A stretch of 64,000 nucleotides of DNA, taken from NCBI RefSeq assembly GCF_003144195.1, contig NW_020289998.1, forward strand, positions 252,459-316,458. Reading direction: 5' to 3'. The stretch's first letter is position 1. Every line of letters starts with the position of its first letter. Made by a program: the position numbers and the translations under genes. This DNA comes from Ceraceosorus guamensis (lineage: Eukaryota > Basidiomycota > Exobasidiomycetes > Ceraceosorales > Ceraceosoraceae). Shown here piece by piece: positions 28,299-30,348 of the stretch. The notes beneath the pieces were generated by a model. The model saw nothing but the letters and a program-made list of their open reading frames with translations, was not told the DNA's origin and did not search any database.

Positions 28299-30348
28299 AT
28301 GGTTCAAATTCTCCGTCTCTTGCCGCTTGTAGGCTTCGTCTCAGCCGCCATGGCCGCCTGCCCTATGGCCGAGCTCACGCGTCGCGGCAATGTCCCCGCT
28401 GACATCGCTGCGCGATACCACGCTGGGCTCGGTCTTGGCGACCTCAGCGCCGACAAACGTGGCGATGCTCCCGTTGAGCGTGCCCAAGCTCCTCCAGGCT
28501 CTCACAATGACCAGCCTCCCCTTCTTGACCCCTTGAGCGGCATCCTTTCGCCGCTTGGACTGGGCGGCCTGACTCCGCGCTCGGACGCCCTTCCTGAGCA
28601 CCTCGAGATGCAGCGTCGTCACATCCTTGAACGTCTCAACGAGCGCGATGAGGACGTCGACATCGATGCCAGGGTCCTCACCCCTAAAGCGCAGAAGCGC
28701 CACTTCGAAGAGCGCGGTCTCATCGGAGGCCTTCTTCAACCTCTTCAGGGTCTCCTTGCTCACCTCGACATTCCTGCTCCTTATGAAACCGGACTTAAAG
28801 CCATTCCTGGAAACGATCCGGACCACCAGTACAAAGCTCCTGATTCTACCGAAAAAAGAGGCCTCTGTCCCACGCTTAACACGTTAGTTCGGGGATTAGG
28901 GTTAGGGTTAGGGTTAGGGTCTAACCCTAGGGTTCTAACCCTAAGTAGAAAGGATGAGGAGACTCGCTAGGCATTGCTGAAGGACGCTAACGTCTTGTCT
29001 TCCTTTTTCATCCGGCGTGGATGCGTTCACGATCGACCGATGTATCTCGATTTCGAACTTGCCCGGGCCGCCGGTAGTCTGGCTAATCACGGGTGAGTTC
29101 GACGCTGAGATTTGAGTGTAAAACACAGATTGCCCAAAGAATTTCAGGAATGATGAAGAGTGAAGGGCTAATGTTCGTCGTGGAGAAGTCGGGATGGCGG
29201 TTGCACGAGCATCGAAAGGCGCGCTACATGCTCGTCACGTGACCACACATATCCCTGTGCCAGAGCTGATTAATTTGCGACCATATCATCCACCCGCCTG
29301 CAGATACATTGACCGATCTGGCATCACCACTTTTGCTGAGGCCGCCAATGCCATCCAAGAGGCTTACTCGATCTCTTTCGACCTGGCCGTCGGCTTGTCC
29401 GCCCTAGGTCTGCTGGCGGGTGGTGACATCATCACCGGCAAGTACAGCCTTGGTGGTCAAGACCCTCGTGTTCCCAACACCCTTGGCCCTGCGCTCGGCA
29501 TCAACAGGCACGGTCTGTTCGAGCTGGATGGTTCCATCAGCCGTAGCGATGCTGGATTCGGTGACAACCACTCCTTCAACCAGACCAAGTGGGATGCTCT
29601 GGTGGATGACACCAAGAAGTACGGTGGCGGTTTGTTCAACCTTGAGGCCTTCAAGCGTAATGCTGCCACCCAGATCGAGGCAAGCCGCAACACCAACCCA
29701 ACGGTGAGTAGCGAAGCGCGACTGTCAGCAAAGCTCTTCTGAGTACGTCCTTCTCCCCTGAAGTACACCAACGGCCCAAACTTCTTTGTGAACTATGCTA
29801 CTCGTGCTTTGACTGCGCGTCCTCTGCCCAACGGTACAGCCCCAAACACTCCTGGTGAGTCGCAGTCGCAGTCGCCTTACCGCCCTGCCTTTGAGTCGTC
29901 TTGAGGCACTGACATTGGTTTCCACTGTCTCAACGAAGATTACGCGAACGTAGCCCCATTCTTCCTTGAAGAAAAGTTCCCCGAAAACTGGTTCAGAATT
30001 CCCAACGCCTACTCGCTCGTCGACTTGCTTGGTGACGTGGCATCTTTGCTTCTCTTCAAGCCTCAACCTCTCGGCGAGACCCACAACGGTCGCTTTGTGC
30101 CACTCGAGGTGAACGTGCCCACCCTACCAGAGGATGTTGCTTGCTTCGCCTTCGCAGCACTCGTCGACGTTGCACCTGGTCAGGTGTCCGGTGGCATCCA
30201 GGTGCTCAACGCCATCAAGGACCAGCTTTTCGCTCCTCTCTTCAAGTCCGTCAAGTGCGACATTGACGAGTTTAGCAAGCGTCAACAAGGAGGTAGTGGT
30301 ATCAATGGCGGTCGCCGTTCGGTGACCAGCTATTCCCGCGAGGCTTGA
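28299..30348 (+). CDS. Secreted heme-thiolate peroxidase (chloroperoxidase/peroxygenase family)
   Basis: Family enzymes use a Cys-ligated heme and hydrogen peroxide to halogenate or oxygenate substrates outside the cell. Exons: 28299-28882, 29078-29092, 29304-29703, 29764-29854, 29939-30348; 499 residues. Signal peptide MVQILRLLPLVGFVSAAMAA, then an unusually long 165-residue stretch with Lys-Arg pairs at 53-54, 133-134 and 186-187. The heme-ligand motif is CPTLNTLANHG (Cys190), followed by GITTFAEAANAI, LAVGLSALGLLAGGD, and the acid-base region FELDGSISRSD (ELD where chloroperoxidase has EHD and UPOs EGD). Exon 2 is only 15 bases and encodes most of LANHG, split over two junctions; without it the family motif is lost. 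Intron 1 contains telomeric repeats (28896-28945). Basic KRQQGG and Ser/Arg residues lie at the C terminus. Substrate unknown. Confidence 0.93.
28896..28945 (+). repeat. Interstitial telomeric sequence in intron 1 of the peroxidase gene
   Basis: Four perfect TTAGGG units (28896-28919), then the palindrome AACCCTAGGGTT (28923-28934), then CTAACCCTAA on the opposite orientation. The forward and inverted units together could fold back. It lies 13 bases after the intron donor GTTAGT and makes the intron 195 bases long, more than twice the usual size here. Confidence 0.95.

Follow-up and report, generated by a model that had tools for sequence, protein, structure and literature searches.

The window, a 64,000-nt stretch (C3:252459-316458) of the Ceraceosorus guamensis assembly (23.8 Mb, 199 contigs), carries a heme-thiolate peroxidase gene with a short telomeric array and its fold-back inside the first intron (Table 1). 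The coding chain of the gene runs through 28299-28882, 29078-29092, 29304-29703, 29764-29854 and 29939-30348 (stop included), and its product matches the Pfam family Peroxidase_2 with an E value of 5.3e-42. The five-exon protein is the same as the C. guamensis protein IE81DRAFT_363690 except for five residues that are missing from the latter. Since the public model differs in nothing but the lack of LANHG, it has very probably merged introns 1 and 2 into one.

Exon 2 restores the stretch CPTLNT-LANHG in the protein. A197, N198 and H199 are invariant in an alignment of 14 rows, and 113 of the 120 proteins listed (the best 120 of 128) have ANH or ANY at this site. Among the others in that list, P0007 has ASH and five start at or after the site; only P0001, which is IE81DRAFT_363690 itself, spans the site yet lacks the segment. 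The 15-base exon of the preliminary description is thus borne out, in that homologues spanning the site carry ANH, ANY or ASH there, and, judged by homology, the exon is real. The comparison exposes an error in the public gene model, which removes near-invariant residues beside the heme-ligand cysteine.

Very short exons were seen in a second peroxidase gene of the assembly as well. A paralogue on contig C106 (C106:7403-7122) has microexons of 30 nt (7329-7300) and 8 nt (7213-7206, AAATGGAA), which lie between introns of 74, 86 and 84 nt and restore ANHGYIARNGITTFAEA; microexons seem to be recurrent in this peroxidase family here. A protein search with a 101-aa piece of a paralogue returned short proteins only, because candidate length follows query length. 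Among P0001-P0036, the named closest homologues of the window's gene are mostly Dothideomycete and the rest are largely unnamed metagenome proteins; there is one Exobasidium homologue, at 57%. In a gene tree of 43 proteins, Ceraceosorus sits on a long branch of unsure placement, paired with P0010 (support 93/79), and Exobasidium is not its sister. No name among the best 120 of 128 homologues, many of which are nameless, shows another Ceraceosorus species, and a search of viral_contigs for relatives gave 50 pattern matches with none confirmed.

Table 1. Features of the peroxidase locus (window positions) and copies of a dispersed telomere-linked element (contig positions)
Feature	Position	Strand	Remarks
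Heme-thiolate peroxidase gene, 5 exons, 499 aa	28299..30348	+	One open frame; PF01328
Intron 1, 195 nt, GTTAGT..GGTAG	28883..29077	+	Branch-point candidate CTAAC at 28987
(TTAGGG)4, G-strand sense	28896..28919	+	Units start at 28896, 28902, 28908, 28914
Predicted RNA hairpin, 22 pairs (3 G-U)	28896..28944	+	3-nt loop GGU 28918-28920; 2-nt bulge 28931-28932
14-nt tandem unit TAGGGTTCTAACCC, 2.1 copies	28915..28943	+	TRF; overlaps telomeric array
Inverted C-strand arm CTAACCCTA-GGGTT-CTAACCCTAA	28921..28944	+	Holds CTAAC motifs at 28921 and 28935
Exon 2, 15 nt	29078..29092	+	Completes T195, LANH, two bases of G200; not in public model
Intron 2, 211 nt	29093..29303	+	Without two adjacent telomeric units
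Dispersed element copies	C3:5531-5583, C20:264969-265057, C64:51049-51101, C70:81620-81667, C90:40346-40413		

The array lies at C3:281354, 281 kb from the left end of a 681,627-nt contig, and the insert starts 13 nt past the donor of intron 1. Four perfect TTAGGG units followed by an inverted telomeric arm are present as first described, with the arm slightly scrambled. The GT of the next unit stands between the fourth TTAGGG and CTAACCCTAGGGTTCTAACCCTAA, which is the sequence of the arm. The arm does contain the central palindrome attributed to it (AACCCTAGGGTT, 12 nt, 28923-28934), but the plural inverted CCCTAA units of the preliminary description reduce to a single complete one (28939-28944), the rest being CTAACCCTA and the palindrome. 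The location given there (28896..28945) likewise holds except at its end, the exact span being 28896-28944, or 49 nt. TRF reported the hexamer array at 28896-28920, with 4.2 copies. The locus is absent from an inverted-repeat scan of the window (strict Watson-Crick pairing, loops of at most 12 nt), because without G-U pairs the inner stem is 9 bp and the cut-off was 10. Inspected by eye, the insert edges showed neither a target-site duplication nor any other sign of repair.

A comparison with the chromosome ends of the same assembly identified the repeat: seven of the 12 contig-end stretches examined run into a TTAGGG/CCCTAA array at their very end, and the intron array is therefore telomeric sequence at an internal site. 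From the base composition of the window, 1.4e-7 occurrences of (TTAGGG)4 are expected in 23.8 Mb, as against 2.6 two-unit arrays, and a chance origin of the four-unit array is excluded. Within the window, a search for two units with one mismatch allowed found this place only (three overlapping matches; shuffled mean 0.03). The head-to-head pattern TTAGGGTTAGGG-N0-30-CCCTAA was found at this locus only in the 23.8 Mb (two overlapping matches), and its reversed control gave 0 matches; fold-backs of lesser length do occur in the genome. Among the 100 of 466 matches listed (C3 to C87), every array of at least three units except this one was within 5 kb of a contig end. A similarity search of the genome with the whole of intron 1 returned the intron itself and a weak opposite-strand self-match of the palindrome (E 1.16), and in a short-word BLAST against chosen loci the 60 matches listed, all of them for intron 1, were the 25-nt telomeric run.

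We also scanned the genome for two units followed by C within 10 nt, which gave 66 rows versus 11 for the reversed control; the resulting list is incomplete, as a five-unit array at C3:4269 is missing from it. Besides this locus, the rows comprised seven isolated two-unit sites (C11, C16, C27, C33, C36, C40 and, 3 kb into its contig, C47), copies at most 1.7 kb from a contig end, a scaffold-gap site on C123 and a small dispersed element. Seven sites are not far above the two-unit expectation, and hence there is no general abundance of short interstitial telomeric sequences (s-ITSs) in this genome.

Several other telomere-linked elements came to light in the assembly. TTAGGG tracts, mostly at contig ends (L019, L022-L025, L028-L030, L044-L051 and L056), enclose at least two sequence families. 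Both begin with TTACAAGGG after the array and have a variable distal cut-off by a new telomeric array, resembling the telomere-inserted retroelements MoTeR and Cryptococcus CNL1 described in PMC12810828. A small choice of five open frames near these elements was scanned for a reverse transcriptase Pfam domain, and none had one. The dispersed element is G+C-rich and carries some two to three telomeric units adjoining GCCGCACGCTGCTACGCAGCG, a core with five exact copies in the genome and none for the reversed control. At C123:29198-29819 (L047), a single base separates a telomere-embedded element and its TTAGGG array from a 10-N gap. NRPS-like condensation and PP-binding domains lie upstream and an AMP-binding match just below the Pfam cut-off lies downstream; the scaffold was probably misjoined here at the end of a chromosome.

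The 195-nt length of intron 1 and the 13-nt distance of the repeats from its donor are both as originally reported, and the accompanying claim of a length above twice the local norm is true only in comparison with introns 3 and 4 (60 and 84 nt) and three introns of the C106 paralogue; it fails against intron 2. Length is weak support for an insertion, because intron 2 is longer without any array; intron 1 minus the insert would still measure 146 nt. The first intron of the C106 paralogue lies one codon upstream of the intron 1 position. Better arguments for a presumed insertion are the telomeric identity of the repeats, their inverted order and their rarity.

We consider it probable that the insert is an s-ITS that entered during repair of a break and is spliced out with the intron. 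Its four telomere-type units at a non-terminal site fall within a class that ranges from a few to a few hundred units, and the array unit is the telomere unit of the species. Repair of a break is our best guess, though unproven: a double-strand break in intron 1 would have been sealed with head-to-head telomeric DNA, either by telomerase extending both broken 3' ends with joining afterwards or through capture, as filler, of an already existing inverted fragment of telomeric or subtelomeric DNA. The duplication of the 14-nt fold-back unit could stem from a small later rearrangement. The insert, presumably neutral, would be transcribed and then removed with the intron. The head-to-head order speaks against this reading insofar as it requires two additions or a preformed palindrome, and so do the edges without visible repair marks and the lack of a general s-ITS abundance in the genome.

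A fragment of subtelomeric repeat could instead have moved in as filler or by ectopic recombination, with no telomerase acting on site, which we regard as rather unlikely. The suggestion comes from a 21-mer at the palindrome centre, TAGGGTTAGGGTCTAACCCTA, which has two exact copies in a minisatellite close to the left end of C3 (its 19-mer core lies at C3:3825-3843 and C3:3878-3896, and one further base matches on each side) and, with one change, in the same minisatellite repeat at C162:1533. The search behind this returned 14 rows, of which eight were minisatellite copies, four were in the intron and two elsewhere; the reversed control gave five. With this 21-mer present in a subtelomeric repeat, capture of chromosome-end DNA as filler is a rival to addition by telomerase. 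However, the satellite flanks are not in the intron, and the satellite stretches examined lack both a four-unit array running into the fold-back and a second copy of the fold-back unit, although the five-unit array at C3:4269 is 0.4 kb away. We estimate that two inverted tracts meeting without filler would share the same join by chance in about 1 in 36 register combinations, and the recurrence of the 21-mer is thus suggestive only.

The insert might also matter to the RNA. Minimum-energy folding of RNA 28889-28948 predicts the hairpin of Table 1 at -27.6 kcal/mol (z -3.54; an equally good fold in 1 of 200 dinucleotide shuffles), in line with the hairpin potential proposed at the outset. The G-quadruplex proposed alongside it was rejected, since the minimum-energy fold with the G4 option switched on is still the unchanged hairpin. 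Intron 1 has three CTRAY motifs, all of them CTAAC, with those at 28921 and 28935 inside the insert and that at 28987 outside it; no AG follows the latter before the acceptor at 29077. In the predicted fold both insert motifs are base-paired, so that the hairpin may hide them. In the pre-mRNA, the hairpin would loop out the insert and bury its two CTAAC motifs, and with these buried exon 2 would probably be spliced via the branch point at 28987. Mis-splicing through the insert motifs is possible on the sequence, as the AGs at 28945 and 28948 could act as cryptic acceptors, which would give introns of 63 and 66 nt and a truncated protein ending in KDEETR.

It nevertheless seems improbable that the insert is a functional intronic element through which the hairpin, or a TTAGGG-binding protein, would control how the 15-nt exon is spliced or how the gene is expressed. 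Such a role would suit the perfect units in a non-coding stretch, the strength of the predicted fold, the placement close to the donor and ahead of a microexon with near-invariant residues, and the presence of two-thirds of the intron's CTAAC motifs within the insert. Yet use of an insert CTAAC with AG 28945 or 28948 would yield the truncated protein, and the paralogue stretches C106:6000-7700 and C14:301500-303500 contain zero TTAGGG or CCCTAA. As a long shot, patches of head-to-head telomeric DNA may give rise to introns or shift their sites; the 63-/66-nt splice here would compete with the 15-nt-exon splice and tune enzyme output. The G strand offers a GTTAGG-like donor, the C strand CTAAC and the edge AG, and one palindrome therefore carries ordered splice signals. 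The alternative intron in this gene would combine the donor at 28883, the CTAAC at 28935 and the AG at 28945 or 28948, and its length would be near the range of 60-86 nt into which most other introns measured here and in the C106 paralogue fall.

Expansion of a simple repeat by slippage, unrelated to telomeres, is very unlikely: a hexamer tract of 4.2 copies and other short tandem repeats in the window would agree with it, but slippage alone does not make an inverted arm, and the unit is the genome's telomere unit. The relic of an end-to-end chromosome fusion, proposed earlier as an ancient telomere fusion, or an assembly join of two chromosome ends is hardly credible, for although G strand followed by C strand is indeed the fusion orientation and a suspect join exists elsewhere (the five-unit TTAGGG array one base before the gap at C123:29810-29819), exons 1 and 2-5 of one colinear gene stand on either side of the array and align in order with homologues, 281 kb inside the contig, and intron 1 has no other match in the genome. 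The window contains no N, in contrast to the 10-N gap at the suspect C123 join, and a contig join was accordingly judged unlikely.

Heterochromatic, short, subtelomeric and fusion types of interstitial telomeric sequence (ITS) are distinguished in PMC6410037. Like the s-ITSs of human, rodents and horse (PMC7215372, PMC6410037), which are often intronic and for which break repair has been proposed, the insert has few units and is internal; unlike them, it is in a fungal host and is a head-to-head palindrome, an arrangement reported in horse within a complex rearrangement. According to PMC7215372, 31% of human ITSs are intronic, comparisons with empty sites indicate a break-repair origin, and the horse provides a head-to-head case. 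The insert shares the TTAGGG-CCCTAA order of fusion ITSs such as human 2q13 (PMC7215372, PMC6410037). It differs from them in being 49 nt only, inside one colinear gene with no subtelomeric repeat found beside the insert, so that head-to-head arrays are present but former chromosome ends on both sides are not. With subtelomeric ITSs and degenerate satellites (PMC7215372, PMC6410037) it has in common the 21-nt fold-back core of the contig-end minisatellite and only that core; subtelomeric ITSs adjoin a telomere and are mixed with subtelomeric repeats, whereas the insert is 281 kb from the nearer contig end and without satellite flanks. A search for interstitial repeats near Kwoniella fusion sites (PMC11185503) detected no arrays of at least two repeats beyond the chromosome ends.

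Titles and abstract openings in the open-licence literature yielded no announcement of an intronic ITS in a fungus. Mammals are known to carry short telomeric insertions in introns and in head-to-head order, and as far as the literature searched shows, a fungal, palindromic and microexon-adjacent instance is new. PMC7215372 leaves the effect of intronic ITSs on splicing open, and the locus offers a small test of whether intronic telomeric repeats affect it. If the break-repair reading is true, it would suggest that telomeric DNA is used to seal breaks also in a compact fungal genome.
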